Positions 8,174 through 33,651 of a DNA stretch of 64,000 bases are shown one piece after another. Under the pieces are notes generated by a model. That model was given only the letters and a program-made list of their open reading frames with translations, had not been told where the DNA came from and searched no databases. Within the stretch, counting starts at the first letter, position 1; every line of letters begins with the position of its first letter. The stretch lies in NCBI RefSeq assembly GCF_027925385.1, contig NZ_AP027142.1:2710001-2774000 (forward strand), given 5' to 3'. Origin of the DNA: Methylocystis iwaonis (GTDB taxonomy: Bacteria; Pseudomonadota; Alphaproteobacteria; Rhizobiales; Beijerinckiaceae). The position numbers and the translations under genes are program-made.

Positions 8174-8195
8174 GCGCGGCTTGTGACGACGACGA

Positions 8196-17862: not shown

Positions 17863-18767
17863 GGCAGCAAATCCTTCAAATGATAGTGGAACGGGCCGAG
17901 CTTGCCGCCATAGTTGCCGGCGCCGACGCGCTTGGCGCCCTTCTCCGGGCCCATCTCGATGATCGCTTTCAACCCGGCGCGCATGGCGGCGGAAACCGCC
18001 GCGTCGGTCAGGCCGTCGATGACGATCTCGAGCACGCAGCCGACGTCGGGATCGAGCGCGCTCTTGGTTACGCCGCGCAGGGTCGGGCAATAGGCGTCAT
18101 TGGTGGAGGCGCCCATGCCCTTATATTGCGAACCGACCTTGGAGCCCGAACGAACGATGCCGCCCGGAAAGGGCTGGATCACATCCGGCACGGCGTCGAT
18201 CGCGGCCACGGCGGCTTCCGTCGCGCGCATGGTCGATTCCCAATCCGCTCCCATGACGAGCAGATTGCCGCCGCCGACGGATTTCTTCGTCAGCCCGACC
18301 TTCGACTCGCAGAAGAACTCGCCGTCCATCACCGGGATGCGCCAGAAGCGGCGCCCGTCAATGGCCTTGGACATCTGCCATTTGTCGCCGAACTGGCGCA
18401 CGGCGTCGCCGACCTTGATCTCGAACTCGCCCTTGACGGTCGAATAGACCGCCGAGCCGGGGCAGGTCAGCACGCATTGGCCGAGGCGGTTGACGAGCTG
18501 CTTTTCGGCGTCCTTCGAGGACATGGCGAACAGCAGCGCGCGCACGCCGGGGCGCCCGTCCGGCGTCTCGTCGGGCGAAACCTCGCAGTCGACGCCCGCC
18601 TCGCAGCCGCAGCCGATGACCGAGGTCGCAAAGCCCGTCATGGTCTTGGCGGCGATCATGGCCCATTTGGCGTTGGGGCCGGTGATGAGAATGCCCGTCC
18701 CGCTCATCGGGAAGGCTTCGGCGAAACTCTCGTCGATGCGAACGCCGTTGCGAATTATTCCTTGCAT
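17859..18767 (-). CDS. fhcD: Formylmethanofuran--tetrahydromethanopterin formyltransferase
   Basis: The 302-residue enzyme (Ftr/FhcD family) transfers the formyl group from formyl-tetrahydromethanopterin to the methanofuran analogue carried by the Fhc complex, the step before hydrolysis to formate. Family motifs include PMSGTGILITGPNAKWA, GCGCEAGVD, PVMDGEFFCE, GGNLLVMGADWE and the closing GAGNYGGKLGPFHYHL. A strong GGAGG site sits within the end of fhcA and the two genes overlap by 13 bases. The reaction runs in the cytoplasm as part of C1 oxidation downstream of formaldehyde. Confidence 0.95.
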   Translation of the reverse strand: MQGIIRNGVRIDESFAEAFPMSGTGILITGPNAKWAMIAAKTMTGFATSVIGCGCEAGVDCEVSPDETPDGRPGVRALLFAMSSKDAEKQLVNRLGQCVLTCPGSAVYSTVKGEFEIKVGDAVRQFGDKWQMSKAIDGRRFWRIPVMDGEFFCESKVGLTKKSVGGGNLLVMGADWESTMRATEAAVAAIDAVPDVIQPFPGGIVRSGSKVGSQYKGMGASTNDAYCPTLRGVTKSALDPDVGCVLEIVIDGLTDAAVSAAMRAGLKAIIEMGPEKGAKRVGAGNYGGKLGPFHYHLKDLLP

Positions 18768-20389: not shown

Positions 20390-21495
20390 GGCGCGACCTC
20401 CGAAACATTCGCCATGATGGCGTCGATGACGTGAGCAACCGTCGGCGCGTCGGACGGCGCCGTGGCCGTGCGCAGCGTCAGGCCGCCGGTCTCCTGGGCC
20501 ATGAGCACGGCGTCATGGGTGACGCCGGGCTGGCCGACTTCGATGTAAAGCCCGCGCGCCGGCGCAGCGCCGGCGGGGGCCAGGGTGACGAGCGGAACAT
20601 CGCCCCGCGACCAGGACGGCGCCTCGCCGTCGAAAGCTGAAATCCACAGCGCCGCGTCGGCCTCGCCGCTATCGACGAGACGGGACGCCTCGAAGCGCCA
20701 GGGATCGTGCTCGGGATAGCCGCGGCCGAAGCCCGTGCGCGGCGGGAAGCCCGTCATCCAGCCCGCCGCTTGCGTCACGCCGGACGCGCCGGCGCGGGCG
20801 CCGATATGCACGCCGGTGAAGCGCGTCGTGACGTTGAGGTCGGTGACGAGCGCCTGCATCATCTCGATCGTCAGGGCGTCGAGGCCGGCGGAGGCGGCCC
20901 AGACGAAGCAGCCGAACTTGGCGTTCTTCATGGTCTGCGCAAGGGCGTCGATCCGCTCGAGCTTGGCGGCGTCGATCCGATCGGCATTGACCGGGCGGCC
21001 GCCGACGCGGGCGCGCCAGACGCCGAGGGCGCCGGAGATTTCCTGCAAATTAGCCGGAATGACCGTCGCGCCGCCGATTGCGTTAACCTCGCTCGCGTCC
21101 GGCCCGAGCCAGATGACCTTGCGCGGCGTCCCGGCGTGCGAGCCGTGGCGCGGCGCCTGATCGAGCGCGAGACGCTCCAGCATGCCGGGCCATTGTTTCG
21201 TGAGGCCGGGTCCGACGAGCACGACGACATCGGCGCGCACCCGCGCCTCATTGGCCGTGGTGGTGAACATGCCAAAAGACCGCTTCACATCGAGATCGGC
21301 CAGCAGATCGCCTGAGGCCAGATGATCGAAGGCGCCGCGCAGCCGCTCGGCGAGAAGGATTGCCGCGCGGGCGCCGGGCACGTCCGCCCCGAGGCCTGCG
21401 ACGAGGGGAAAATTCGCGCGGCTCAATATGCGCGCCGCCTCTTTATAGGCGTCTTCGAGCGCAATCGCTTTGCCGTCGAGCGTCGCCTTGCTCAT
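20383..21495 (-). CDS. fhcB: Formyltransferase/hydrolase complex subunit B
   Basis: The 370-residue protein resembles the molybdopterin-binding subunit B of formylmethanofuran dehydrogenase, shortened. In bacterial Fhc complexes this subunit is structural and lacks the active-site Cys/SeCys and redox role; consistently, no iron-sulfur cysteine cluster is seen here. Recognisable stretches are GLGADVPGARAAILLAERL, KRSFGMFTTTANEARVRADVVVLVGPG and GFGRGYPEHDPWRFEA. It is the first gene of the fhcBADC operon; the promoter must lie in the 404-base gap shared with divergent pqqA. Confidence 0.92.
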   Translation of the reverse strand: MSKATLDGKAIALEDAYKEAARILSRANFPLVAGLGADVPGARAAILLAERLRGAFDHLASGDLLADLDVKRSFGMFTTTANEARVRADVVVLVGPGLTKQWPGMLERLALDQAPRHGSHAGTPRKVIWLGPDASEVNAIGGATVIPANLQEISGALGVWRARVGGRPVNADRIDAAKLERIDALAQTMKNAKFGCFVWAASAGLDALTIEMMQALVTDLNVTTRFTGVHIGARAGASGVTQAAGWMTGFPPRTGFGRGYPEHDPWRFEASRLVDSGEADAALWISAFDGEAPSWSRGDVPLVTLAPAGAAPARGLYIEVGQPGVTHDAVLMAQETGGLTLRTATAPSDAPTVAHVIDAIMANVSEVAPC

Positions 21496-21899
21496 CCGAT
21501 TCCCTGCCCCGTTCCGCTGGTCGCGGTTGTTGTCCTTAGCCGCGCGGCCGGCGCCGCGCGGGCCCGAGCGATTCTCTCGCCGCCAGTAGCGTGAGGAAGG
21601 CTCTGAGGCTTTTGAATGATGGCCTTCGGCCGGATTGCATGCGCCCGTTTCGAAAGCGCGCTGTACCTAGCAGCCGTCACGCGCCATGTCGAGACGCTTG
21701 GGCGTCACATCTCTGCAGAACACATAAGGAGCGAGGTCTGCCGCCGCGCCAGCCTTGCCGCAAGCGGGGCCATAAGGTCAATTGCACGGCCCCATCGATC
21801 ATGATAATGCTCTCGCCGAGCTCGAACCTGCCCCAGCCGATCAAACGGCCAACAAGAGCGGGAAGCAGCCGTCAGAGTTCCAATTCGGAGGATATCGAC
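21496..21899. other. Divergent intergenic region between fhcB and pqqA
   Basis: No gene seen in 404 bases. It should carry the promoters of both the fhc operon (minus) and pqqA (plus). A sigma70-like pair for pqqA is listed separately. Short reading frames here are Arg/Pro-rich and lack ribosome sites. Confidence 0.5.
21782..21810 (+). promoter_or_regulatory. Possible sigma70-type promoter for pqqA
   Basis: TTGCAC (21782-21787), 17 bases, then TAATGC, overlapping GATAAT (21803-21808) in a TGATAAT context. It lies about 90 bases upstream of the pqqA ATG. Only a match by eye. Confidence 0.3.
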
Positions 21900-21977
21900 A
21901 TGGCCTGGACCACCCCTGTGATCGTCGAAGTTTGCGTCGGCATGGAAGTCACCAGCTACTCTTCGGCTGAAATCTAA
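21900..21977 (+). CDS. pqqA: PQQ precursor peptide
   Basis: A 25-residue peptide, too short for most gene finders. Its second half, CVGMEVTSYSSAEI, matches the PqqA family, with the invariant Glu16 and Tyr20 (E-x-x-x-Y) that PqqE cross-links and that become the PQQ backbone. An excellent GGAGG site lies 8 bases before the ATG. No pqqB, C, D or E follows, so this is an orphan precursor copy; methylotrophs often carry pqqA apart from, or in more copies than, the other pqq genes. PQQ is the cofactor of methanol dehydrogenases, which fits the lanthanide genes downstream. Confidence 0.93.
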   Translation: MAWTTPVIVEVCVGMEVTSYSSAEI

Positions 21978-21989
21978 GATTTCGCGAGA

Positions 21990-22009
21990 ATCGTCGCTTC
22001 GGCGACGAT
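21990..22009 (+). terminator. UUCG stem-loop behind pqqA
   Basis: Perfect 8-bp stem ATCGTCGC / GCGACGAT closed by a TTCG tetraloop, 12 bases after the pqqA stop. A short A-run (CAAAAAA) but no T-run follows, so on the plus strand it is more likely a stabilising or processing hairpin than a classic terminator. Confidence 0.5.
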
Positions 22010-22122
22010 GCGCTCGACAAAAAAGCGAGCCGGTAGGATATACGCCGCTGTTGACGGCGTTTCTTACTCGGCTCGATTTTTTTGCCCAATTCGTTGAAAC
22101 TGCAAAGTCTCTGAGGGCCGTC

Positions 22123-23151
22123 ATGCGCAAATCGGCGCTATTTATCGCTTCAACGGCAGCCATCCTGTCCACGGCGGCGATCGCCGAAACGCTCGACACG
22201 AAAAAGCTTCTCAACGACGCGCATGCGTCGTTCCAGCCGCTTCCTTCGGTCCCGGTCGCCAAGGATTCGCTGCAGGCTGTCCGCGCCGAGCTTGGTCGAC
22301 GGCTGTTCTTCGAGAATCGCGTCTCGATGGACGGCAATGTGAGCTGCTCTCACTGCCATTTGCCGGATAAGCAGGCGACCGATGGCCTTCCGAAGGCAGT
22401 CGGCGTGTTCGGCAAGGAAAATCCCCGCAACGCGCCGTCTATCTTCAACGCCGCGATGAATTTCAAGCAGCATTGGCGCGGCGACCGCGAATCGCTCGAA
22501 GAGCAGGCGGAAAAATCGCTGCTCGGCCCGGCGAGCTTCGGCAATCCCGACCAAGCGACTGCAATGGGCAAGCTGAAGGCGATCCCCGCCTATTCGGACG
22601 CTTTCGCAAAAGCCTTTCCCGACGACAAGGACCCGATCAACTCCCGCAATTGGGGCATCGCCGTCGCCGCCTTCGAATGGACGTTGCTGACGCCGTCGAG
22701 ATTCGACGCCTTCCTGTCAGGCGACGCCAAGGCGCTGTCGCCGCAGGAACAGGCGGGCCTGCGCAAATTCATCGATACCGGCTGCGCGACATGCCACAAT
22801 GGCGTGGGTCTCGGCGGCAATTCCTTCCAGAAGTTCGGCGTGACCGAAGACTATTGGAAGGAAACGGGCGCGACGAACCCCGACAAGGGCCGCGCGGACG
22901 TCACCAAAAACGACGACGATCTCTACGTCTTCAAGGTCGCGAGCCTGCGCAATGTCGCGAAGACCGCGCCTTATTTCCACGACGGCTCGGTCGACGATCT
23001 GACCAAGGCCGTGAAGATCATGGGCAAGACGCAGCTCGACAAGACGCTTTCGGATAAGGACGCCGCCGACATCGTGGCCTTCCTGGGAAGCCTGACGGGG
23101 CCCGTCCCGGCGAATTATTCGGCGCCGGAGCCTTATCCGGACGCGAAGTAA
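22123..23151 (+). CDS. Di-haem cytochrome c peroxidase family protein
   Basis: A 342-residue exported protein with a signal peptide (1-21, AIA|ETLD) and two c-type haem sites, CSHCH (75-79) and CATCH (221-225). The sequence follows bacterial cytochrome c peroxidase/MauG: ELGRRLFFE, RNAPSIFNAA, FEWTLL and TAPYFHDGSVDDLTKAV. At the distal ligand position of the C-terminal haem it has Met300 (VKIMGKTQL), as in peroxidases, where MauG has Tyr; so H2O2 reduction rather than MauG-type tryptophan modification is more likely. The ATG at 22123 has GAGGG upstream. Its placement behind pqqA suggests it protects or serves periplasmic C1 oxidation, but this is inference. Confidence 0.9.
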   Translation: MRKSALFIASTAAILSTAAIAETLDTKKLLNDAHASFQPLPSVPVAKDSLQAVRAELGRRLFFENRVSMDGNVSCSHCHLPDKQATDGLPKAVGVFGKENPRNAPSIFNAAMNFKQHWRGDRESLEEQAEKSLLGPASFGNPDQATAMGKLKAIPAYSDAFAKAFPDDKDPINSRNWGIAVAAFEWTLLTPSRFDAFLSGDAKALSPQEQAGLRKFIDTGCATCHNGVGLGGNSFQKFGVTEDYWKETGATNPDKGRADVTKNDDDLYVFKVASLRNVAKTAPYFHDGSVDDLTKAVKIMGKTQLDKTLSDKDAADIVAFLGSLTGPVPANYSAPEPYPDAK

Positions 23152-23182
23152 GCACCTTTCAGAGCGCAGGGCGCGAGCCCAT

Positions 23183-23316
23183 CCCTCCCCTTTACGGGGA
23201 GGTGGCCCCGCGTAAGCGGGGTCGGGTGGGGTAAAGCCCCAACGACGGTCCTAGCGGCGCGAGCCCCACCCGGCGGCCTTTGGCCGCCGACCTCCCCGTA
23301 AAGGGGAGGTAGGGGG
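23183..23316. repeat. Palindromic interspersed repeat, family C copy 1
   Basis: About 134 bases with outer arms CTCCCCTTTACGGGGAGG and CCTCCCCGTAAAGGGGAGG and internal small hairpins (CCCCGCGTAAGCGGGG, GGCGGCCTTTGGCCGCC). Nearly identical to 38634-38762. Confidence 0.8.
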
Positions 23317-23386
23317 ATCGCTAAGCGAGATTGCTATTCGCCCGATTGCCCTGCCCCTCTCCCCCTTCCCGCCGGGGAAGCCCAAC

Positions 23387-24007
23387 TCACGCCAGCTTCT
23401 GCTCCAGCGCGATTCGCATCAGCTCCATCGGCGTGCGGGCGCCGAGCTTGCGCTTCATGATCGAGCAGCTATTGGCGACGGTCTTGTAGGAAACCTGAGT
23501 CGCCTCGGCGATTTCGGCCATGCCGAGGCCCGAGCCCAGCATGCGCAATATCTCCAGCTCCCGCGCCGTGAGCGCCGACAGCGGGCTGACCGCGGCGGAG
23601 TTTTTCGCAAAGGCGAGCTGATTGGCGATTTTCGGCATGAGAAACACCCCGCCAGCAGCCACCTCGCGCACGGCCTTCAGCAGCAGAAAGGGATCGTCGT
23701 TCTTCGTGACATAGCCCTTCGCGCCGGCCTCGATCGCCCGCGCGGCGAAGATCGGGTCGTCATTCATGCTGAACACGACGATGCGCGCCTGCGCGTCGAT
23801 CTCCAAAATTCGCCGCGTCAATTCGAGCCCCGAAACGCCGGGCATGGCGATGTCGACAACCGTCACATCGGGCTTGTTGGCGATAAAGGCCGCAAGGCCG
23901 CTCTCCGCATCACGGGCGTCGACGACCTCTATGTCGCCTTCCCCGGCGAGCATCGCTGAGCAGCCCGCGACAATGATCGGATGGTCGTCGACTATAAGAA
24001 CGCGCAT
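23387..24007 (-). CDS. NarL/FixJ-type response regulator
   Basis: A 206-residue regulator with a receiver domain (DD at 7-8, phospho-acceptor Asp52 in VVDIAMPG, Lys in YVTKNDDP) and a LuxR-type helix-turn-helix (about 140-200: LTARELEILRMLGSGLGMAEIAEATQVS). The DNA-recognition part VSYKTVANSCSIMKRKLGA is typical. It is divergent from a histidine kinase gene 109 bases away, which is its likely partner. NarL-type regulators paired with HisKA_3 kinases control methanol oxidation in some methylotrophs (MoxX/MoxY, FlhR/FlhS); by position this pair could control the neighbouring lanthanide/PQQ genes. Confidence 0.92.
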   Translation of the reverse strand: MRVLIVDDHPIIVAGCSAMLAGEGDIEVVDARDAESGLAAFIANKPDVTVVDIAMPGVSGLELTRRILEIDAQARIVVFSMNDDPIFAARAIEAGAKGYVTKNDDPFLLLKAVREVAAGGVFLMPKIANQLAFAKNSAAVSPLSALTARELEILRMLGSGLGMAEIAEATQVSYKTVANSCSIMKRKLGARTPMELMRIALEQKLA

Positions 24008-24116
24008 CTTTCCTCCCTTGAAACTGCGTCAAGATTGACCGTAAGCGGCGCCTTCGTAAAGTCGCCGCTCCCTGCGTTCGTCCCGACGCAGGCGAGAAAG
24101 CGGGAGGAAATCGGCC

Positions 24117-25445
24117 ATGTTACGAAAAATGACGTTGCGCGCGCGGCTCTCGCTTCTGATCGGCGGCGTCATCATCGCGGGCCTCGGCTTTGGCGTAAGC
24201 CTTCTGATCCTCCATGCGGGAACGCGCGTCAGCGCCGAGGCCGAGGGCGCGACCAGACTCGCGCGCGAACTCGTCCAGGCCACCCTGCCCCGACTGTCGA
24301 CGACGCAGAATCCACGCGCCGTCCTCGCGGAACTGATGGAAGACGCGGGCCGCCTTCGCCATGTGCGCGTGATACTGGAAGGCGACGCGCCATCGACCCC
24401 GGCGGCCGAAAAACGCGCGCCCGACTGGTTCAGCGCGCTGGTGTTTCGCGCGCCCGCGCCGACGCGCGTCGCAACGCCGCTTGGAACAATCGAAATTGCG
24501 GCAAGCTCGCAAGACGAAATCGCGGAGATCTGGGAGGAAATTGTCTGGCTCGCGATCGGCGCGGCCGGCGTCGCCGCGATCGCCTTCGCACTCGTCTCCT
24601 ATGCTGTTTCCCGCGCGCTCGCCCCGATCGGCGCACTTTCGGACGCGTTGCAACGGCTCGAACAGGGCGATCATGCGATACGCGTTCCCACCGACGGCTC
24701 CCGCGAATTCGTGATGATCGCCGAGCGCATCGACAGCCTCGCCGCCACTTTGCAGCGACTCGACTCGGAAAACCGGCAGCTTCTGCGCCGCATGATCCAT
24801 GTGCAGGACGAGGAGCGGCGCGCCATCGCGCGCGACTTGCACGACGAGATCGGACCTTTCCTCTTCACCGTGCGCGCCGGCGTCGGCGCCCTGGCGCGCA
24901 AGGCGCAAAGCTCTGGCGCCGACCCGGCGCGACTGGCGGAAGACTGCGCCAAGATCGACGCCCAGATCGCCGCCTTGCAGCAGGTGAACCGGCGCATTTT
25001 AGGGAGATTGCGGCCAGCGGCCCTGGAAGAGATGGGCCTCGCCGACGCCATCGAGGCGCTGGCGCGCGGCTGGCGTGAGACGCGGGCGGAAATCGCCATC
25101 GATCTCTCGCTCGAAGGCGCGCGGGCCAAGCTCGACGAAACGACCGCGATCACAGCCTATCGCGTCGTCCAGGAAGGGCTCACCAACGCCTTCAGACATT
25201 CGGGCGCAAGCCGAATCGCCGTCGCGATCGCGCGCGCCGGCCAGCGGCTACGCGTCGAAGTCCGCGACGACGGGACGGGGCTTCCGGCCGCTTTCACGCC
25301 TGCCGGACTCGGGCTGCGCGGCATGAGCGAGCGGGTGACCGCGCTTGGCGGAACCCTCAGGCTCGACAACGGCTCGAACGGCGGCGCCCGGCTCGTCGCC
25401 GAATTGCCCCTCGACGCAGCGTCCGCCGACAAGACGCGGAGCTGA
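24117..25445 (+). CDS. Membrane sensor histidine kinase, NarX/MoxY-like
   Basis: The 442-residue kinase has an N-terminal membrane segment (about 12-33), a periplasmic domain of roughly 105 residues, a second membrane segment (about 143-162), a HAMP linker (LAPIGALSDAL...), a HisKA_3 dimerisation domain with the acceptor His in ARDLHDEIGPFLF, and an HATPase domain (VVQEGLTNAFRHSGAS, VRDDGTGL, GLGLRGMSERV). The order membrane-periplasmic-membrane-HAMP-HisKA_3 is that of MoxY. GGGAGGAAA precedes the ATG. The signal is not known; a periplasmic cue such as lanthanide status would fit the neighbours, which is inference. Confidence 0.92.
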   Translation: MLRKMTLRARLSLLIGGVIIAGLGFGVSLLILHAGTRVSAEAEGATRLARELVQATLPRLSTTQNPRAVLAELMEDAGRLRHVRVILEGDAPSTPAAEKRAPDWFSALVFRAPAPTRVATPLGTIEIAASSQDEIAEIWEEIVWLAIGAAGVAAIAFALVSYAVSRALAPIGALSDALQRLEQGDHAIRVPTDGSREFVMIAERIDSLAATLQRLDSENRQLLRRMIHVQDEERRAIARDLHDEIGPFLFTVRAGVGALARKAQSSGADPARLAEDCAKIDAQIAALQQVNRRILGRLRPAALEEMGLADAIEALARGWRETRAEIAIDLSLEGARAKLDETTAITAYRVVQEGLTNAFRHSGASRIAVAIARAGQRLRVEVRDDGTGLPAAFTPAGLGLRGMSERVTALGGTLRLDNGSNGGARLVAELPLDAASADKTRS

Positions 25446-25648
25446 GCCGCTCGGCCCGAGAGGCCCGGGATTTTCTCCCGAAAAGAGCAGGACTGCATCC
25501 CTGTAAAACCGTTATTTTTCAAACCTGTAGCGAAGGCGCAACAGGTCGGGAATATTGTCGCTAAACTGTCTTGGCGACGGGACGGCGCGGCAGGCTGAGA
25601 GATATAAACCCGCCCAATAAAGATGCTCGCAAAAATCGGACTGGGGCC

Positions 25649-28051
25649 ATGGTTTTGGATAGACGGATTTCCTTCATCGCTCTCTCGGTGGCGCTCGCGC
25701 CGGGCGGGGCCTTGGCGCAGACCTCCTTGCCGACGATCGAGGTCGGCGGCGCACCGCTGCGCTCGACCGCGCGTCCTGCGACCGCGCAAACCGCCCCGAG
25801 CCGCCCGGCCGCCGGCCAGTCCACACGCGTCTCTTCCGCCCCGATCTCGGCGACGCCCGCGGCTTCCCCGGTCGTTATCAAATACGCCGTTCCGGCGGCG
25901 ACCTATACGCTTTCCTCCAAGGAACTGGCGCAGACCCGCCAGTTCGACGTCTCCGGCGCGCTTCAGCGCCAGGCGCCGGGCGTGATCATCAGCGACGTCG
26001 CCGGCAATCCCTTCCAGCCGCAGATCGACTTCCGCGGCTTTGTCGCCTCGCCCATCTCCGGCACGCCGCAGGGGCTCGCCGTCTATCAGAACGGCATTCG
26101 CGTCAACGAAGCCTGGGGTGACGCGGTCAACTGGGACCTGATCCCGAATATCGCCATCGACCGCCTAACGGTGGTCACCGGCAACCCGCTCTTCGGCCTC
26201 AACGCCATCGGCGGCGCGGTCACGGTCGATATGAAGAACGGCTTTACCTATCAGGGCTTCGAACTCGACGCCCGCACCGGTAGCTGGGCGCGCCGTCAGG
26301 CCTCGATGCAATATGGCGTCCAAAAAGGAGCCTTTGCGAGCTACCTCGCCATGGAGGCCGCGGGCGATAACGGCTATCGCCATTTCTCCGGCTCGCACGT
26401 CAAGCGGCTTTACGGCGACGTCGGCTATCGCGGCGAGAGCGGCGAAATCCACGCCAATGTCACGGTGGCGCAGAACCGCTTTGGCGCCAGCGGCCCGGCG
26501 CCCGTCGAGCTGACGAACATCGATCCGGGCGCAGCCTATACGACGCCGCAAACCTATAAGAACACGCTGGCGATGTACGACATCAACGGCAACATCGCGC
26601 CCAACGAGCATTGGAAGCTTTTCGGCGACGTTCACTTCCGCGCCTTCGATCAAGCGCGCGTCGACGGCAACACCACCGAGTTCAATTCCTGCGGCGAAGC
26701 AACGCTGTGCAACGGCGAGGGCGAGGACACGCGGCTTCCCGACTATTTCGGCGGCGCCGCATCGCTCGGCGTGATCGACAACACCTGGACTCGCTCACGC
26801 ACCATCGGCGGCACCGTCCAGGCCACAAACGACGATATTTATTTCGGCTTCCACAATAAGATCACTTTCGGCGTCAGCTATGATCACGGCTGGACGGCCT
26901 TTTCGGCGAATGAGACGCTCGGCGTCATTCAACCGAACCTCGTCGTCGGGATCACCGGCCCGGTCGTGGAAGAACCCGGGAGCAGCATTTCGAGCGTTTC
27001 GGTGCGCGCCTCGAACGACTATCTCGGCGTCTATGCGCTCGACACGCTCGACATCACCGACAAGCTCTCGGCGACCGCGGGCGCGCGCTTCAATCGCGCC
27101 GGCATTTCGCTTTATGATATGCGCGGGACGCAGATCAACGGCTCGGGGGTCTATACGCGCATCAATCCTGTTGCCGGCCTCACCTATAAAATCCTGCCGA
27201 ATGTCTCGGCCTACGCCAGCTATTCGGAGGCCAATCGCGCGCCGACGCCGCTCGAGCTCGCCTGCGCCGACCCGAACCGTCCCTGTCTCATCGACAATTT
27301 CCTTGTCGCCGATCCGCCGCTGAAACAAGTGGTGTCGCATACGATCGAGACGGGCCTGCGCGGCAATGTCGCGCTTCCTGCGATCATTCCGTGGGCGGCG
27401 GATTATCTCCCCGGCGAGCTCACCTGGAGCGCGGGGCTCTATCGCACCTATAATTTCAACGACATTCTGAGCGTCCCAACCCAGGTCGGCGGGCGCGGCT
27501 ATTTCACCAACGCCGGGACGACCTTGCGCCAGGGCGTCGAAGCCTCGCTGCGCTACGCCGACGAAAGGCTCAGCGCCTGGCTCAGCTATACGTTGACCGA
27601 CGCCACCTTCCAGTCGACGATCCTGCTCGGCGCGCCGAACAATCCGCTGGCGGCGGCCTTCGGCAATGGCAGCGTGATGATCACGCCCGGCGCAAACATG
27701 TCCTCGATCCCGCGCCACCGCCTGAAGGCGGGCGCGGATTACGCCGTGACGCCGCAATGGCGAATCGGGGGCGATGTCGTCTATTCGACGGGGGGCTGGC
27801 TGCGCGAGGACGAAATCAACGCCTTCGGCACGCTCTCGCCCTATGCGCTGATCAATTTACGCACGTCCTGGCAGGCGACGCCGAATCTGCAATTCTACGG
27901 GCTCATCGAAAACGTCGCCAATGTGCGGTCGCGCAGCTTCGGCGTTTTCTACGATACGGCGGCGATTTCCTTCCTGCCCTTGTCGAATCCGAAGATGGTT
28001 TCGCTCGGACCGCCGCTCGGCCTCTTTGGCGGCGTGAAGATCTCCTTTTAA
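25649..28051 (+). CDS. lutH: TonB-dependent receptor, LutH-like
   Basis: An 800-residue outer-membrane receptor with a signal peptide (ALAPGGALA|QTS), a proline/alanine-rich linker, a plug domain (about 90-220; FDVSGALQRQAPGVIIS, FRGFVASPISGTPQGLAVYQNGIRVNE) and a 22-stranded barrel ending GLFGGVKISF with the terminal Phe needed for outer-membrane insertion. The plug sequence and the neighbouring lanM, lutA, lutB, lutE and lutF-like genes point to the LutH group that imports a lanthanide-chelator complex in Methylobacterium. The ATG at 25649 has GGGG upstream and gives a clean signal peptide; an upstream ATG at 25571 does not. A 203-base leader separates it from the kinase gene. Confidence 0.82.
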   Translation: MVLDRRISFIALSVALAPGGALAQTSLPTIEVGGAPLRSTARPATAQTAPSRPAAGQSTRVSSAPISATPAASPVVIKYAVPAATYTLSSKELAQTRQFDVSGALQRQAPGVIISDVAGNPFQPQIDFRGFVASPISGTPQGLAVYQNGIRVNEAWGDAVNWDLIPNIAIDRLTVVTGNPLFGLNAIGGAVTVDMKNGFTYQGFELDARTGSWARRQASMQYGVQKGAFASYLAMEAAGDNGYRHFSGSHVKRLYGDVGYRGESGEIHANVTVAQNRFGASGPAPVELTNIDPGAAYTTPQTYKNTLAMYDINGNIAPNEHWKLFGDVHFRAFDQARVDGNTTEFNSCGEATLCNGEGEDTRLPDYFGGAASLGVIDNTWTRSRTIGGTVQATNDDIYFGFHNKITFGVSYDHGWTAFSANETLGVIQPNLVVGITGPVVEEPGSSISSVSVRASNDYLGVYALDTLDITDKLSATAGARFNRAGISLYDMRGTQINGSGVYTRINPVAGLTYKILPNVSAYASYSEANRAPTPLELACADPNRPCLIDNFLVADPPLKQVVSHTIETGLRGNVALPAIIPWAADYLPGELTWSAGLYRTYNFNDILSVPTQVGGRGYFTNAGTTLRQGVEASLRYADERLSAWLSYTLTDATFQSTILLGAPNNPLAAAFGNGSVMITPGANMSSIPRHRLKAGADYAVTPQWRIGGDVVYSTGGWLREDEINAFGTLSPYALINLRTSWQATPNLQFYGLIENVANVRSRSFGVFYDTAAISFLPLSNPKMVSLGPPLGLFGGVKISF

Positions 28052-28062
28052 CCGGCGGCGCT

Positions 28063-28090
28063 GGCGCCCGGGCTCCCGGGCGCCTATTTT
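28063..28090 (+). terminator. Intrinsic terminator behind lutH
   Basis: Perfect 10-bp GC-only stem GGCGCCCGGG / CCCGGGCGCC with a two-base centre followed by TATTTT. It ends 34 bases before the lanM ATG, leaving little room for a separate lanM promoter. Confidence 0.8.
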
Positions 28091-28123
28091 AGCGCTGCTT
28101 CGGCGCCAACTTTGGAGATCGAT

Positions 28124-28525
28124 ATGAAAAAGACGTTTGTGTTCTGTGCGCTGGCGCTTGCCGGGCTGCTCGTCGCCCCGGTCGCGCCCGCGCTGGCCAA
28201 AAAGGCCCCGCCGGTCGCCTCGCTCGATACGGACAACGACGGCACGGTCGACGTGAACGAGGCGAACAAATCCGCCGAGGCGCTTTTCACCAAGCTCGAC
28301 AAGGACAATGACGGCACCATCGAGCCCAAGGAGCTTCAGGGCCGCCTCTCCAAAAAGGAATTCAAAGCGGCTGACCCCGACAATGACGGCACGCTGAGCA
28401 AGGACGAATATCTGGCCGTCGTCGGCAAGCTCTTCAAGGAAGCCGACGGCGACAATGAAGGGACGCTGGACGACAAGGAATTCGCATCCAAGCAAGGCAA
28501 GGCGCTGCTGCGCGTCGTCCGCTGA
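28124..28525 (+). CDS. lanM: Lanmodulin-like EF-hand protein
   Basis: A 133-residue periplasmic protein with a signal peptide (1-25, PALA|KK) and four EF-hand loops at 35-46, 59-70, 84-95 and 108-119, with only 12-13 residues between adjacent loops. That tight spacing, the size and the flanking sequence (KLD.D.DGT...KEL.GR.S, EYLA.V...FK) are those of lanmodulin, the picomolar lanthanide binder of methylotrophs, and not of calmodulin. Loop position 2, Pro in the Methylobacterium protein, is Thr, Lys, Pro and Gly here, and loop 4 has Glu at position 5. GGAG precedes the ATG by six bases. Likely periplasmic lanthanide carrier or buffer. Confidence 0.9.
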   Translation: MKKTFVFCALALAGLLVAPVAPALAKKAPPVASLDTDNDGTVDVNEANKSAEALFTKLDKDNDGTIEPKELQGRLSKKEFKAADPDNDGTLSKDEYLAVVGKLFKEADGDNEGTLDDKEFASKQGKALLRVVR

Positions 28526-28540
28526 TCCCGGCTTTCCGGC

Positions 28541-28680
28541 TGTCATTCCCGACGCTCGCTTAAGCGAGCGATCGGGAATCCAGAGCCGAACCAGCGCTTT
28601 TGTGGCTCTGGATTCCCGGTCGGGCTTTCAGCCCGCCGGGAATGACATTCCCCAATGCGAGCTGTTCAACCGGAAAAGGT
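28541..28680. repeat. Palindromic interspersed repeat, family A copy 2
   Basis: Best-preserved copy: TGTCATTCCCGACGCTCGC, inverted GGAATCCAGAGCC / GGCTCTGGATTCC, then GGAATGACA and GCTGTTCAACCGGAAAA. Lies directly behind lanM and separates it from lutA. Confidence 0.85.
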
Positions 28681-28805
28681 GTCAGGCTTTGCTCCGGATT
28701 CCCGATTGCCTCGCATTCTCCAAGGGCGCGAACACCAAGGGCGCGAATGATGGACCGCGTTCTTACAACTTGATCCCTCCCGCCGATCCGGCCATGTAGA
28801 AGGCC

Positions 28806-29984
28806 ATGAAACGCCTCGCCGCCGCTTTCTGCCTCATGCTCGCCGCCGCCCCCGCGCGCGCCGAGACGCTCGATATCAAGGTCGGCGTGCTGCGCGAGCC
28901 GCACTCGCGCGAGACCCTCTCCATCCTCGACATTCCCGCCGCCGACGACACGCTCGCCGGCGCGCTGATGGGCGCGGTCGACAACAACACCACCGGCAAA
29001 TTCACGCATCAAACCTTTGAAGCGATCGACGAGAAGCTCGACGACGGCGCCGATGCCTCGGCGGCGATCGACGCGCTCGTCGACAAGGGCGCGCTTCTCA
29101 TCATTGCCGATCTCTCGCCCGATCGTCTTCTTGCGGCGAGCGAGCGCGCCAAGACGAAGGGCGCGTTGCTCTTCAACGTGTCGGCGCCCGACGATCGGCT
29201 TCGCGAGGAAGACTGCCGCGCCAATGTCGTGCATGTCACGCCGACGCGCGCCATGCTGGCGGACGGGCTCGCGCAATATCTCGTCTGGAAACAGTGGCGC
29301 AAATGGCTGCTCATCAAGGGCTCGCACGCCAATGATGAATTGCTCGCGCAGGCCTATCGCCGCGCGGCCAAGAAGTTCGGCGCCAAGATCGTCGAAGAGC
29401 GCCTCTATGAAGACACCGGCGGCGGGCGGCGCAGCGACTCGGGCTCGGTTCAGACGCAACGGCAAATGCCCGTCCTGACCCAGAATGCGCCCGCCTATGA
29501 CGCGCTTGTCGCCGTGGATGAGAGCGAGGTTTTCGCGGGCTATCTCCCCTATCGCACATGGGACCCGCGCCCTGTCGCGGGCTCGGCCGGCCTCTATCCC
29601 ACCAATTGGGACCCCGCCCATGAACAATGGGGCGCCCAGCAATTGCAGAACCGTTTCATGATGACCTATCGCCGTCTCATGAACGCGCGCGACAACGCCG
29701 CCTGGCTCGCCATGCGCATGATCGGCGAAGCGGCGACGCGCACCAATTCCAACGCGCCCGACAGACTGCGCGCGTTTATGCTCGGCAAGGATTTCTCCAT
29801 CGCCGCCTTCAAGGGCGTGCGTCAGACGCTGCGTCCCTGGAACCAGCAATTGCGCCAGCCGATCCTGCTGTCGGACGGCCGCATCACCGTCTCCGTCTCG
29901 CCGCAGGAAGGCTTCCTGCATCAGGTGAGCGAACTCGATACGCTGGGGCTCGATCAGCCCGAAACGAAGTGCAGGTTAAAATGA
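28806..29984 (+). CDS. lutA: ABC transporter periplasmic binding protein of PQQ-alcohol dehydrogenase systems (LutA-like)
   Basis: A 392-residue exported protein (signal peptide ending APARA|ETLD) of the branched-chain-amino-acid-binding-protein fold. It belongs to the subgroup that accompanies PQQ-dependent alcohol dehydrogenases and is called LutA in Methylobacterium. Recognisable stretches are IGVLREPHSRE-type start (VGVLREPHSRETLSILD), LLFNVSAPDDRLREEDCR and PTNWDPAHEQWGAQQLQNRF. It begins the lutA-lutB pair, overlapping lutB by four bases. The ligand is not proven; genetics in Methylobacterium ties this system to lanthanide handling. The ribosome site is weak. Confidence 0.85.
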   Translation: MKRLAAAFCLMLAAAPARAETLDIKVGVLREPHSRETLSILDIPAADDTLAGALMGAVDNNTTGKFTHQTFEAIDEKLDDGADASAAIDALVDKGALLIIADLSPDRLLAASERAKTKGALLFNVSAPDDRLREEDCRANVVHVTPTRAMLADGLAQYLVWKQWRKWLLIKGSHANDELLAQAYRRAAKKFGAKIVEERLYEDTGGGRRSDSGSVQTQRQMPVLTQNAPAYDALVAVDESEVFAGYLPYRTWDPRPVAGSAGLYPTNWDPAHEQWGAQQLQNRFMMTYRRLMNARDNAAWLAMRMIGEAATRTNSNAPDRLRAFMLGKDFSIAAFKGVRQTLRPWNQQLRQPILLSDGRITVSVSPQEGFLHQVSELDTLGLDQPETKCRLK

Positions 29985-31072
29985 AGAAGGCCCCCTCCCT
30001 GCCCCTCCCCCGCTGCGCGGGAGAGGGAACACTCACGCCCAAGAGCCGCTTTTTTTATGGAGACCGCGATCTGCTCCCTCTCCCGCGAAGCGGGGGAGGG
30101 CTGGGGAGGGGGCTGCTGCGAGCGGCGCTCCTCTGCGGCGTTCTCCTCCCCGCCCAAACCCACGCCTACACGGCGTTCGTCAGCAATGAAAAAGGCAACT
30201 CCATCACCGTCATCGACACGGAGAAGCTGGAAGCGACGGCGACCGTGAAAGTCGGCCGTCGCCCGCGCGGCATCGAGCTGAACAAGGACGGTTCCGAGCT
30301 CTTCATCTGCGCCGGCGACGACGACGCCATTCAGGTGCTCGACACCAAAACCTTAAAGCTCACGGGCAAGCTCCCTTCCGGCCCGGACCCGGAGCTGCTC
30401 GTGCTCAGCCCCAAGGGCGACATGATCTACGTCTCCAACGAGAATGATAATCTCGTCACGCTTATCGACGTGAAACGCAAGGAGCAGGTGGGCGACATTC
30501 CCGTCGGCGTCGAGCCGGAAGGCATGGCGGTCAGCCCGGACGGCAAGCTCCTCGTCAATACGTCGGAGACGACGAATATGGCGCATCTGATCGATACGCA
30601 GACCAAGGAAATCGTCGCCAACATCCTCGTCGACAACCGCCCGCGCTTCGCCGAATTCAAGAAGGACGGCTCCGAGCTTTGGGTGTCGTCGGAGGTTGGC
30701 GGCACGGTGGCGGTGATCGATCCCAACAAGCGCGAATTGAAGCAGAAGATCAGTTTCGAGATTCCCGGAATGTCGAAGGAGGCGATCCAGCCGATCGGCA
30801 TTTCGATCACCAAGGACGGCAAGCGCGCCTTTGTCGCACTGGGCCCCGCGAACCGCGTGGCGGTAATCGACGCTGAGTCCAAGAAGATCGAAAAGTATCT
30901 GCTCGTCGGCCAGCGCGTCTGGCACCTCGCCTTCACGCCGGACGAAAAATATCTGCTCACCGCGAATGGCGTGTCGAACGACGTGTCGGTGATCGACGTG
31001 GCGAGCCTTAAAGTGGTGAAGTCTATTCCGGTCGGCTCCTTCCCCTGGGGCGTGGTGGTGGCGCCGCAATGA
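29981..31072 (+). CDS. lutB: YVTN beta-propeller protein (LutB-like) with repeat-extended signal peptide
   Basis: A 363-residue periplasmic seven-bladed beta-propeller of the PQQ-ABC-associated group. Repeats such as YTAFVSNEKGNSITVIDTEK, GDMIYVSNENDNLVTLID and YLLTANGVSNDVSVIDVASLK are evident. The ATG overlaps the lutA stop (ATGA). After M-K-K, about 41 residues (4-44) are encoded by a 122-bp inverted repeat, and the normal hydrophobic core LLRAALLCGVLLPAQTHA resumes at 45, with predicted cleavage at A62|Y63. No in-frame ATG lies downstream, so the extended leader is probably translated unless a CTG/GTG start is used. Partner of LutA; required for lanthanide-dependent growth in Methylobacterium. 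Confidence 0.87.
   Translation: MKKAPSLPLPRCAGEGTLTPKSRFFYGDRDLLPLPRSGGGLGRGLLRAALLCGVLLPAQTHAYTAFVSNEKGNSITVIDTEKLEATATVKVGRRPRGIELNKDGSELFICAGDDDAIQVLDTKTLKLTGKLPSGPDPELLVLSPKGDMIYVSNENDNLVTLIDVKRKEQVGDIPVGVEPEGMAVSPDGKLLVNTSETTNMAHLIDTQTKEIVANILVDNRPRFAEFKKDGSELWVSSEVGGTVAVIDPNKRELKQKISFEIPGMSKEAIQPIGISITKDGKRAFVALGPANRVAVIDAESKKIEKYLLVGQRVWHLAFTPDEKYLLTANGVSNDVSVIDVASLKVVKSIPVGSFPWGVVVAPQ
29991..30112. repeat. 122-bp inverted repeat inside the lutB signal-peptide region (family D)
   Basis: Left arm 29991-30028 and right arm 30075-30112 are near-perfect inverse copies (CCCTCCCCCGC...GCGGGAGAGGGA against TCCCTCTCCCGCG...GCGGGGGAGGG). The 46-base middle contains CCGCTTTTTTTATGG. MITE-like, with no coding capacity of its own. 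Confidence 0.85.
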
Positions 31073-31100
31073 TGGCGCCGGCGCTGCTTGATTATCGCCG

Positions 31101-31150
31101 ATGCGCGCCTGAAGGCGCGCGGTCCGGACCGCGCGCCTTCAGGCTCGCCT
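31101..31150. repeat. Palindromic repeat, family F copy 2
   Basis: GCGCGCCTGAAGGCGCGCGG, TCCGGA centre, and CGCGCGCCTTCAGG. Lies between lutB and the ABC ATPase gene; related to 13529-13580. Confidence 0.65.
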
Positions 31151-31166
31151 GCAACACAGCGCCGCA

Positions 31167-31913
31167 ATGACCGACGCCCTCGCCATCCGCCATCTTTCGC
31201 ACGCCTATGGCGCCCGCAAGGCGCTCGACGATGTGAGCTTCACTGTCGCGCCCGGCAGCTTCACCGTGCTGCTCGGCCTCAACGGCGCAGGTAAAAGCAC
31301 GCTTTTCTCCCTCGTCACGCGGCTTTATGCGGCGCGGCAGGGCCAGATCGAGATTTTCGGCGCAGACGTCATGCGCAGCCCTGGCGCGGCGCTGCGGCGG
31401 CTCGGCGTCGTGTTTCAGGCGCGCACGCTCGATCTTGAATTGAGCCTGATGCAGAACCTCGTCTATCACGCGGCGTTGCACGGCATCGGGCCCTTCGAAG
31501 CCCGCCGCTTAGGGCAAGAGGCGTTGACGCGCGCCGGCCTTGCGGAGCGCGCCAATGACAAGGCCCGCGCGCTCTCGGGCGGGCAGATGCGCCGCATCGA
31601 GATCGCCCGCGCTTTGCTGCACAAACCGCGCCTTCTGCTTCTCGACGAACCCACCGTCGGCCTCGACATCAAGGCGCGCGCCGATATTCTTGCCCATGTG
31701 CGCGGCCTCGTCCGCGACGAGGGGCTCGGGGTCTTGTGGACGACCCACCTCATCGACGAGATCGATCCCGAGGATCAGGTGGTGATCCTGCACAAGGGCA
31801 AAGCGCTGGCGACCGGACGGGCGCGAGAGATCGTCGCGCAAAGCGGCGCAGCGGAGATCGGGGCGGCCTTCGCGAAGATCACAGGCGCCGACGTGGAGAG
31901 GATTTCGGCATGA
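31167..31913 (+). CDS. lutE: ABC transporter ATP-binding protein (LutE-like)
   Basis: A 248-residue ATPase with Walker A GLNGAGKST (residues about 38-46; Leu in place of the usual Pro), signature LSGGQMRRIEIARAL, Walker B LLLLDEPTVGLD and H-loop TTHLIDE. It is of the subtype paired with ABC-2-type permeases and with PQQ-dependent alcohol dehydrogenase clusters (PedC-region and LutE). It probably powers transport across the inner membrane together with the next gene, which it overlaps by four bases. Direction of transport, export or import, is not evident from sequence. Confidence 0.88.
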   Translation: MTDALAIRHLSHAYGARKALDDVSFTVAPGSFTVLLGLNGAGKSTLFSLVTRLYAARQGQIEIFGADVMRSPGAALRRLGVVFQARTLDLELSLMQNLVYHAALHGIGPFEARRLGQEALTRAGLAERANDKARALSGGQMRRIEIARALLHKPRLLLLDEPTVGLDIKARADILAHVRGLVRDEGLGVLWTTHLIDEIDPEDQVVILHKGKALATGRAREIVAQSGAAEIGAAFAKITGADVERISA

Positions 31914-32749
31914 GCTGTCGGGAGCCAATGACGCTCGCCTCCTCTTTCACCCCGCGCCAATATCTCGTCTGTCTTTGGGGCGTCGTCTGGCGCGAGGGGC
32001 TTCGCTTTTTGCATCAGCGCGAGCGCTTCGTCTCGGCGCTGGTGCGGCCGCTCGTTTGGCTCTTCATCTTCGCGGCGGGTTTCCGGCAGGTGCTCGGCGT
32101 CTCCATCATCCCGCCCTACGAGACCTATGTGCTCTACGAGGTCTATATCGCGCCTGGCCTCATGGCGATGATCCAGCTTTTCAACGGCATGCAGTCGTCG
32201 CTCTCCATGGTCTACGACCGTGAGATGGGCAATATGCGCACGCTGCTCGTCTCGCCCTTCCCGCGCTGGTTCCTGCTCGGCGCCAAGCTTTTCGCCGGCG
32301 TCGCCGTGTCGATCCTGCAGGTCTACGCTTTTCTGCTGATTGCTTATTTCTGGGAGATCGAGCCGCCCACCAAATGGGGCTATCTCACCGTCCTGCCGGC
32401 GCTTGCGCTCGGCGGACTCATGCTCGGCGCGCTCGGCATGCTGCTGTCATCGCTCATCAAGCAGCTCGAGAATTTCGCGGGCGTGATGAACTTCGTCATC
32501 TTCCCGATGTTCTTCGCCTCTTCCGCGCTCTACCCGCTCTGGCGCGTGAAGGATTCGAGCCCCTGGCTCTATTACGCTTGCCAGGCAAATCCGTTTACCC
32601 ACGCGGTCGAGCTGATCCGCTTCGCCTTTTATCAGCAGCTCGACTGGGTCTCGCTGCTCGCGGTCGCAGGCTATACGAGCGTCTTTCTCATCGGCGCAAT
32701 CATCGCCTACGATCCCGCGCGGGGCATGCTGATGCGCAGGGGCGGATAG
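31910..32749 (+). CDS. lutF: ABC-2-type permease (LutF-like)
   Basis: A 279-residue inner-membrane permease with six predicted helices. The family stretch SSLSMVYDREMGNMRTLLVSP and the later ALYPLWRVKDSSPWLYYACQANPFTHAVELIRF are characteristic of the ABC-2 transporters linked to PQQ-dependent alcohol dehydrogenases. The ATG at 31910 overlaps the ATPase stop (ATGA) and has GAGAGGA upstream; ATG 31928, with GGGAG, is an equally reasonable start. It closes the lanthanide-type gene block. Confidence 0.87.
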   Translation: MSCREPMTLASSFTPRQYLVCLWGVVWREGLRFLHQRERFVSALVRPLVWLFIFAAGFRQVLGVSIIPPYETYVLYEVYIAPGLMAMIQLFNGMQSSLSMVYDREMGNMRTLLVSPFPRWFLLGAKLFAGVAVSILQVYAFLLIAYFWEIEPPTKWGYLTVLPALALGGLMLGALGMLLSSLIKQLENFAGVMNFVIFPMFFASSALYPLWRVKDSSPWLYYACQANPFTHAVELIRFAFYQQLDWVSLLAVAGYTSVFLIGAIIAYDPARGMLMRRGG

Positions 32750-32772: not shown

Positions 32773-33651
32773 TTATTTCGAGAGGCGCGCCACACTATTG
32801 GACGCCACGCCGAGCGCGCATTTCATTGTGTAGACGAAATCGAGATAGTCGTTGTCGCCGCCGTCTTCGACGTTGTACTGGGCGCCGCCGCTATCCTGAC
32901 AATTGCCGGTTTTACGAAAAGAGGCCGAGTTGACGTCGCTATAGAACTCGACCGGATTGATCAGCCCACCTTGATAACTCAGGTCCTGGTAAGCGACCAT
33001 TCCGACGCCATAGGTCGAATATTTCGGGACCGAAAAAGTGACTGTCCAAGCCCCGACCGGCGGGTTGGTTCCGGAGCCGGAGACGCCGTAACGGTAGGAA
33101 AGAACCGTCTGCTTAGAGGTGACGGCCCCAGAAGCGTTTTTCGTCCAGAGGAACATGTCCTTGGCGAAAGCGCCCTTGGCGCTGACCGCGTTGAAAGTCG
33201 CGGTGACGATCTGCGTCGGAAGCGTCGCCTCGGAATGCGCGCCCACGTTGATCGAGTTCATCCCGATGATCTTCAGAAAAGCCGTCTGAACAGCAAAGGT
33301 CGCGTCAGACGCGTAGATAACGGCGCCATTTGCAGCCGTACTGACGGCAAGCGTCGCACTGATGGCGCTGATCCCGACAGGCATATTGGCGTTCAAATAT
33401 CGGTTGAGGAGCGCAGAATCGGCGGCGCCTTTTGCCGCAGCCGCCAAAACGCCTTTATCGAGCGCTTCCTGCAATCGCGACTTCTTCGTCACTGCCGCAG
33501 AATAGTCGACGGCGCCGCCCACCAGGAGCGCCACGGGAAAAAGCGCTAGGCCGAAGAGAATGGCGACAGTGCCGCGCTGACAGGCCGCGAAGCCGGACGG
33601 CCTGTTCGCCAAGGCGTAAAGCTGTAATAGGCGCAATTTCCAGGCCCCCAA
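32773..33651 (-). CDS. TadG-like pilus-associated protein, orphan copy 1
   Basis: A 292-residue protein with the N-terminal TadE/TadG pattern: a basic start, RGTVAILFGLALFPVALLVGGAVDYS as membrane anchor, then KKSRLQEALDKGVLAAA. The long C-terminal part is unassigned, with cysteines in GNCQDS and TMKCALG, and ends RLSK. A paralogue is encoded at 49612-50706. TadG-like proteins normally belong to Flp/Tad pilus loci, but no other tad gene is near. The only start in frame is TTG at 33651 with a poor ribosome site, so the N-terminus is uncertain. Confidence 0.75.
   Translation of the reverse strand: MGAWKLRLLQLYALANRPSGFAACQRGTVAILFGLALFPVALLVGGAVDYSAAVTKKSRLQEALDKGVLAAAAKGAADSALLNRYLNANMPVGISAISATLAVSTAANGAVIYASDATFAVQTAFLKIIGMNSINVGAHSEATLPTQIVTATFNAVSAKGAFAKDMFLWTKNASGAVTSKQTVLSYRYGVSGSGTNPPVGAWTVTFSVPKYSTYGVGMVAYQDLSYQGGLINPVEFYSDVNSASFRKTGNCQDSGGAQYNVEDGGDNDYLDFVYTMKCALGVASNSVARLSK

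Follow-up and report, generated by a model that had tools for sequence, protein, structure and literature searches.

A lanthanide uptake (lut) locus of Methylocystis iwaonis with an MxaY-family two-component system and a candidate operator upstream of lutH

The window analyzed in this study is the whole stretch of 64,000 nucleotides taken from contig NZ_AP027142.1 of Methylocystis iwaonis (assembly GCF_027925385.1). Between 21.9 and 32.75 kb, the window carries a block composed of pqqA, a di-haem peroxidase gene, a divergent pair of response regulator and histidine kinase genes, a TonB-dependent receptor gene, the lanmodulin gene lanM, and lutA, lutB, lutE, and lutF. In M. extorquens, lutABEFH and lanM are described as lanthanide uptake genes in passages of PMC7391723. 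The analysis concerned the regulator and kinase pair and an inverted repeat located in front of lutH. Genera and families other than Methylocystis are given as codes (g9, g17, g33, g42, f36, and f2), genomes as G numbers, and loci as L numbers. The features of the regulatory and transport part of the block are as follows.

23387..24007, minus strand: LuxR-type response regulator, MxaB-like (PF00072 and PF00196; 53.9% by tblastn to the mxa-linked one)
24117..25445, plus strand: MxaY-family sensor kinase with a periplasmic LapD_MoxY_N-like domain (HisKA_3, HATPase_c, and HAMP; placed by tree)
25465..25481, no strand: palindrome CCGGGATTTTCTCCCGA, candidate lutH operator, one mismatch to TCGGGA-N5-TCCCGA, 167 bp before lutH
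25649..28051, plus strand: lutH-like TonB-dependent receptor (PF00593 and PF07715; synteny; sole lutH-like match)
28124..28525, plus strand: lanM, lanmodulin with four EF loops (NF053806, 157.2 bits, cut-off 135; 6MI5 as best PDB match)
28806..29984, plus strand: lutA, substrate-binding protein (TIGR03863, 457.5 bits, cut-off 413.6)
29981..31072, plus strand: lutB, beta-propeller protein (TIGR03866, 512.4 bits, cut-off 287.3, matching from residue 56 on; the true start is probably later than 29981)
31167..31913, plus strand: lutE, ATP-binding cassette (ABC) ATPase (TIGR03864, 338 bits, cut-off 302.25)
31910..32749, plus strand: lutF, ABC permease (TIGR03861, 391.7 bits, cut-off 241.35)

An earlier note on this DNA had placed all of these genes in an 11-kb block and had read the block as the lanthanide uptake locus of the organism. 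Each named gene was found with a family match, and the reading was upheld: all four ABC genes passed the TIGR cut-offs of families associated with pyrroloquinoline quinone (PQQ)-dependent alcohol dehydrogenases rather than falling outside them, and the receptor was the sole lutH-like match and stood beside lanM. At E ≤ 1e-60, no other lutH-like match was obtained in the genome (6 scored of 20 candidates). The libraries used hold no curated lutH model and LutH of strain AM1 lay outside the comparison; the name lutH is assigned by homology and synteny. An ordinary siderophore receptor was considered and rejected, as no siderophore model reached its cut-off and the neighbours are lut genes. A PDB sequence search with the receptor and with LutA returned no match for either. 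In the case of lanM, the spacing of the four EF loops was lanmodulin-like, and the protein aligned without gaps over 104 residues with 6MI5. In this comparison, proline occupied position 2 of the EF loop in one of four loops in the window lanmodulin, two of four in L038, and four of four in L243.

The earlier note had also proposed a comparison of synteny. The order pqqA, peroxidase, regulator/kinase, lutH, lanM, lutA, and lutB was obtained in seven of eight named Methylocystis/Methylocystaceae loci, and in the eighth, the contig ended inside the peroxidase gene. These loci were found with a single receptor sequence as the query, the reach of which is close relatives. Some variation was observed within the genus. 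In G114, pqqA and the peroxidase gene lie elsewhere, still together, while in G135 and G057, lutH lies away from the block, and the block of G057 also has no regulator and no lanM. The unlinked lutH-like receptors are long, with 1,154 residues in G135 (L252) and 1,174 residues in G057 (L253), and many relatives of approximately 1,160 residues exist. The adjacency of lutH and lanM was observed here and in three g9 genomes (G049, G130, and G147). Judged by gene families and gene order, the block is the Methylocystis lut locus, and its transport genes are ordinary. Directly after lutF, on the opposite strand, lies a gene for a Tad pilus TadE/G-like protein (32773-33651, minus strand; PF13400). 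In addition, GC-rich inverted intergenic repeats were noticed by eye at 23180-23380 and 28540-28650.

The mxa operon of the same genome was located on contig C2. It was named from a dehydrogenase (L045:4833-6707; TIGR03075), cytochrome cL (TIGR03872, 214.5 bits, cut-off 147.8), and gene order, and its remaining genes matched no specific model. At the end of this operon, a regulator gene and a kinase gene are arranged divergently, and 150 bp behind the kinase lies the second pqqA. Among five Methylocystis genomes, pqqA was located behind the mxa-linked kinase in three (L045, L194, and L060 but not L192 or L182). Near the mxa-linked pqqA, there is also a second, unrelated, fragment-like TonB receptor gene (L045:18652-19833, minus strand; PF00593). 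On comparing the lut-linked and mxa-linked pairs of this genome, the regulators were 54% identical and the kinases 39–43% identical. Because a similar pair ends the mxa operon of the same genome and MxaY is described in the literature, the window pair is, by homology, a paralogue of MxaYB placed at the uptake locus.

The relationships of the kinases were determined from a tree of 77 rows; of the 90 kinase hits, it includes those that had an open frame on a locus of 7.5 kb or more. The tree contained no named MxaY, and the mxa-linked rows were identified by their neighbour genes. An MxaY subfamily of 33 rows (support 100/98) held both mxa-linked and lut-linked rows. Within it, a clade of 11 rows (95/90) comprised six mxa-linked, two lut-linked, and three other rows, while a lut-side clade of 22 rows comprised 19 lut-linked rows, with a solid inner group of 18 rows (99/98), 16 of them lut-linked. 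The label "lut" required 12 changes on the tree compared with 25.4 in shuffles, and none of 500 shuffles was as low. Overall, mxa, xox, and lut genes are all found as neighbours of MxaY-family kinases. In one locus (L055 of G042, 6479-11421), a pair of the mxa clade adjoins a pair of the lut clade, with lanM and lutABEF as neighbours.

The domains HisKA_3, HATPase_c, and HAMP of the window kinase were over their cut-offs. LapD_MoxY_N (PF16448) was detected in 27 of 29 relatives, and the window kinase itself remained below the cut-off (15.7 bits against 25, E 0.014). E134, E137, and W139 were invariant in 29 of 29 sequences; these residues are periplasmic and belong to the motif D-E-x-x-E-[IV]-W, located just before the second membrane helix. 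A metal site in the region of E134 and E137 is plausible from this conservation. The predicted structure of the kinase had a mean predicted local distance difference test score (pLDDT) of 81.4 and a predicted template modelling score (pTM) of 0.42, and the PDB matches listed were chiefly kinase cores.

The linkage of the kinase to lutH was evaluated in 149 genomes of the family. A kinase match was found in 48 genomes, a lutH match in 49, and both in 44. In 22 of these 44 genomes, belonging to 10 genera, the kinase was located within 3 kb of lutH, while approximately 0.2 genomes were expected by random placement. When lutA and lanM were counted too, the kinase lay within 3 kb in 30 genomes of 12 genera. 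Beyond the family, in four of nine larger f36/f2 loci, the regulator and kinase were back to back and followed by lutH, and lutABEF lay on the opposite side; in two further f36 loci, the pair was located between an xoxF-like gene and lutA. Among three f2 loci, one had a weaker kinase and a regulator after lutH. The earlier claim that the locus has its own sensor is thus supported by family, paralogy, and conserved linkage, and the window pair would be that sensor.

The inverted repeat TCGGGA-N5-TCCCGA was recognized in the aligned lutH upstream regions of Methylocystis and was present with at most one mismatch in all eight named loci. The perfect palindrome was found in 30 of 39 Methylocystis genomes, compared with 5 of 39 for the reversed control, with 38 sites in all. 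Thirty of the 38 sites were read, two more were known from other loci (G017 and G057, both at lutH), and six were left unread. In the 30 loci read, the palindrome was located 149–179 bp before the lutH start in 24 cases and 17 bp before lanM in one, and it was at neither gene in five. In L051, the palindrome precedes lanM. The long unlinked lutH genes of G135 and G057 carry it upstream as well.

Moreover, the palindrome was found outside the genus. A scan of lutH upstream regions covered the 30 best lutH loci of 49 genomes, after which 13 loci were added (12 further genes and a repeat of G050). In the first scan, 13 of 24 non-Methylocystis upstream regions carried the palindrome with at most two mismatches and 6 of 24 with at most one, while 119 permuted half-site controls gave means of 0.56 and 0.05 and maxima of 3 and 2, respectively. 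A blind scan of the 149 family genomes for the perfect, A/T-centred form gave 11 sites and none for the control. Four of these sites were at lutH, three were approximately 100 bp before exbB/tolQ-like genes (g33), two were inside kinase genes of the MxaY clade, and two were by unrelated genes. The exbB/tolQ-like pair exceeded the Pfam cut-offs and fell below those of all NCBIfam models, and either ExbBD or TolQR fits. Similarly, a blind scan for the A/T-centred form in 397 genomes of the order gave 16 sites in 15 genomes and one control site. Of the 15 loci read, 13 had the palindrome in front of a lutH-like gene; leaving out L288, which had already been seen in the genus, the count is 12 of 14 new loci. 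In f36, the kinase was on the far side of the palindrome from lutH in seven of nine loci, and the other two had a divergent xoxF-like gene. The palindrome also precedes xoxF-like genes in single loci, perfectly in L201 and with one mismatch in L195 and L198. Near the palindrome, three f2 loci (L316, L317, and L318) carry genes for lutH-like receptors together with an exbB/exbD-like pair; in their 16-kb stretches, no lut ABC set was recognized, although L316 gave a weak match for an ATPase. Alignments of the regulator–kinase intergenic regions and of the lanM upstream regions revealed no clear common box. Taken together, TCGGGA-N5-TCCCGA is likely to be the operator of the lut-linked regulator, as judged from its recurrence and position.

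Several observations weigh against a dedicated lut regulator acting at this palindrome. The 12 lutH genes added to the scan contributed one match, giving 14 of 36 non-Methylocystis regions at no more than two mismatches. The palindrome was not found at lutH in any of the five g9 genomes scanned (G008, G049, G108, G130, and G147). Three of four lutH genes in g42 lacked it despite a lut-linked kinase, and the fourth had a poor match with two mismatches. In G135, G057, and two f2 loci, it is kept at lutH genes that have no kinase linked to them. The association of kinase adjacency with the palindrome was 12/14 versus 7/16 at up to two mismatches (p 0.026) and 8/14 versus 3/16 at up to one (p 0.057), both with relatedness ignored. 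The copy in the window has one mismatch, and 1 was found against 0.26 expected; the window palindrome alone would not stand out, and thus the case rests on the comparison. The mxa promoters of this genome had no palindrome at up to two mismatches, such sites occurring there only inside two genes, and a single operator common to lutH and mxaF was rejected on this ground. The branch joining all lut-side kinases was weak (80/26). In addition, a xoxF5 mutant of M. silvestris had a truncated mxaY in six of six sequences, which suggests a role in the switch but, by the paper's own account, is no proof of one (PMC9291206).

The leading alternative, held to be less likely, is that the lut genes import lanthanide but the palindrome serves an unlinked regulator, e.g., a metal repressor, and that the two-component system controls other things, for example whether xoxF or mxaF is used. 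The palindromes at lutH genes without a linked kinase and the g42 kinases without a palindrome at lutH would fit this explanation. The g33 sites would fit as well, as all three of the non-lutH sites counted there precede exbB/tolQ-like genes, a pattern usual for metal repressors. However, the palindrome lies between the kinase and lutH in seven of nine f36 loci and in Methylocystis, the related kinases stand by mxa, xox, and lut genes alike, and kinase adjacency and the palindrome tend to co-occur, relatedness being ignored. A dedicated lut regulator acting at the palindrome is preferred here.

Upstream of the regulator, the block begins with pqqA and the peroxidase gene, the features of which are as follows.

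21782..21831, plus strand: conserved pqqA promoter block of TTGCAC, a spacer, GATCATGATAATGC, then CGCCGAGCT..AACCTGC (Methylocystis alignment)
21900..21977, plus strand: pqqA, PQQ precursor peptide (PF08042, 34.5 bits, cut-off 21.1)
22018..22084, plus strand: terminator-like hairpin with a T tract in the gap between pqqA and the peroxidase gene (−37.2 kcal/mol, z −6.4, 0 of 200 shuffles as stable)
22123..23151, plus strand: classical di-haem cytochrome c peroxidase (PF03150; CcpR as best PDB match)

One of the two pqqA copies of this genome lies at the lut locus and the other at the mxa locus; pqqB is located at C1:1849992. Within the promoter block, GATCATGnTAA was identical in nine of nine aligned Methylocystis loci; upstream of the mxa-linked pqqA of this genome, the block was not found. 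Every one of the 11 g1 and g42 genomes surveyed has pqqA either on a different contig from pqqB or separated from it by more than 30 kb. In g17, pqqA and pqqB were located 4–8 kb from lutH in G016, G056, and G113, with the regulator/kinase pair between them in G056 and G113. Because pqqA and pqqB lie within approximately 8 kb of lutH in these three genomes, the linkage of pqq and lut genes is probably old, and Methylocystis would retain only pqqA. A newly recruited pqqA was rejected, since a relic is simpler given the separation of pqqA from pqqB in g1 and g42 and the proximity of pqq to lut in g17. Directly upstream of pqqA, genes of the formylmethanofuran/formyltetrahydromethanopterin pathway occupy 17859-21495 on the minus strand, where 18755-20389 passes TIGR03121 and 20383-21495 matches TIGR03129 below the cut-off. 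Similar formyl-pathway genes lie upstream of pqqA in L052, and one such gene does in L244.

In the case of the peroxidase, the PDB scores were 268 bits for CcpR, 129 for the Di-heme enzyme 6e1c, and 69 for MauG. A protein modifier of the MauG/MbnH type was rejected, as the protein was below both model cut-offs and matched CcpR at 268 bits against 69 for MauG. A homologue with at least 66% identity was present in 10 genomes, always beside a same-strand pqqA (within 450 bp in eight and within approximately 3 kb in two). Five of these pairs were inside the lut locus, and the other five (G114 and four g42 genomes) were away from it. This constant pairing, its placement inside the lut locus in half of the genomes, and the conserved pqqA promoter block could suggest that both genes are working parts of the lanthanide system, for example by raising the PQQ supply or modifying a lanthanide carrier upon induction of uptake. 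This appears doubtful: the pair leaves the lut locus in G114 and g42, a strong terminator separates its two genes in the window, the enzyme is a classical peroxidase and not MauG-like, and no palindrome precedes pqqA. The overall interpretation in the earlier note is partly supported: an uptake locus is supported, a sensor of its own is supported by family, paralogy, and linkage, and the attached cofactor-precursor gene is indeed present but is best read as a remnant of a pqq operon of the kind found near lutH in g17.

The earlier statement that the block has no lutC-, lutD-, or lutG-like gene and no xoxF agrees with searches of the window. With the g9 LutG protein and a g9 LutC/D-like protein as queries, no window match was obtained at E ≤ 1e-3, the lutC/D search covering the window only, and no PQQ dehydrogenase matched within the window, while four matched elsewhere in the genome. 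A lutG-like gene (35% identity) and a gene for a CXXCW protein (TIGR03865, over the cut-off) lie beside a chromosomal xoxF of the same genome. This xoxF cluster (L048, C1:5001-24000) contains a TIGR03874 cytochrome, a MoxJ-like protein (TIGR03871), the CXXCW protein, and the lutG-like gene, and parts of the AM1 lut set thus reside with xoxF in M. iwaonis.

A regulatory RNA hairpin in the lutH leader, acting on translation or termination, is very improbable: despite a six-pair stem, a loop of five bases, and the long conserved stretch from the palindrome to the start codon, the half-sites are conserved as sequence, mismatched copies have no compensation on the other arm, no T tract is present, no Rfam family reached the gathering threshold in the region, and permuted palindromes showed no enrichment.

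The preferred explanation, to which a probability of roughly 0.55 is assigned, is that the lut locus has a dedicated two-component system of the MxaY/MxaB type that couples lanthanide supply to lutH, with the palindrome as its likely operator. The kinase would use its periplasmic domain, at approximately residues 35–140, to gauge how much lanthanide is available, either directly or via a metal carrier. Under lanthanide scarcity, the regulator in its phosphorylated form would bind TCGGGA-N5-TCCCGA and switch lutH on, and in some genomes, the same switch may also act on lanM, xoxF, or the exbB/tolQ-like pair. When lanthanide is plentiful, uptake would fall. In passages of the respective papers, lutH is repressed by lanthanum in AM1 (PMC7391723) and a lutH homologue falls with lanthanide in M. 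silvestris (PMC9291206). The mxa-linked paralogue would run the calcium enzyme, the pqqA of the lut block would be the remainder of a pqq operon that was formerly linked to lut, and the peroxidase, travelling with pqqA, probably removes periplasmic peroxide.

A wider proposal is held more tentatively, at slightly less than an even chance. These elements may represent an undescribed lanthanide-starvation regulon of the Rhizobiales, in which the MxaY-family pair would be a dedicated uptake controller acting via the palindrome in front of lutH; some lineages would also have it in front of lanM, xoxF, and a TonB-energising exbBD-like pair. In methanotrophs, it would run parallel to the mxa-linked paralogue, and a duplicated sensor would divide the calcium and lanthanide sides of methanol oxidation. 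To the question of rare-earth sensing and uptake control in alphaproteobacteria, this analysis contributes a kinase, a regulator, and a DNA site of 17 bp as candidates. As these are found in Methylocystis as well as in further families of the order, the sensing question becomes testable. A known operator would also aid rare-earth biosensors and recovery strains.

Compared with known systems, the locus resembles the lut cluster of AM1 in having lutA, lutB, lutE, lutF, lutH, and lanM together (PMC7391723). Unlike that cluster, the Methylocystis block has lutH and lanM first, has no lutC, lutD, or lutG, and adds the kinase/regulator pair, pqqA, and the peroxidase, while the AM1 passages of PMC7391723 name no regulator. 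MxaY governs the switch in M. buryatense according to passages of PMC5018670. The window pair shares with MxaY/MxaB at the mxa cluster, as described in parts of PMC9291206 and PMC5018670, the kinase/regulator family, the divergent arrangement, and, in this genome, a nearby pqqA. However, the known pair is located at the operon of the calcium dehydrogenase, while the paralogue in the window is located at uptake genes and belongs to its own clade. What PMC9291206 describes for M. silvestris is, by its account, common to several Methylosinus and Methylocystis strains. P. putida has a ped cluster in which pedA1A2BC, ABC genes belonging to the same families, stand beside the lanthanide-responsive kinase PedS2 and the LuxR-type regulator PedR2. 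There is no LutH there, and the sensing part of PedS2 is described as cytoplasmic, whereas that of the window kinase is predicted to be periplasmic; the likeness is drawn from the description in passages of PMC12997753. CcpR (PDB 6qkn) was the best match to the window peroxidase (residues 27-331, 268 bits), but the latter is paired with pqqA. A survey of lutH and lanM across methanotrophs (PMC12482762) does not use the words lutA, pqqA, or two-component in its main text, and a paper mentioning lut homologues of Bradyrhizobium (PMC12628762) does not use the word histidine kinase in its main text. Among the titles and abstracts of the matches listed, with subscription journals mostly outside the coverage, neither an MxaY paralogue at lut genes nor this palindrome was described. 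In summary, the lut part of the locus is already known, and what appears to be new is the putative dedicated MxaY-family system together with its candidate operator.

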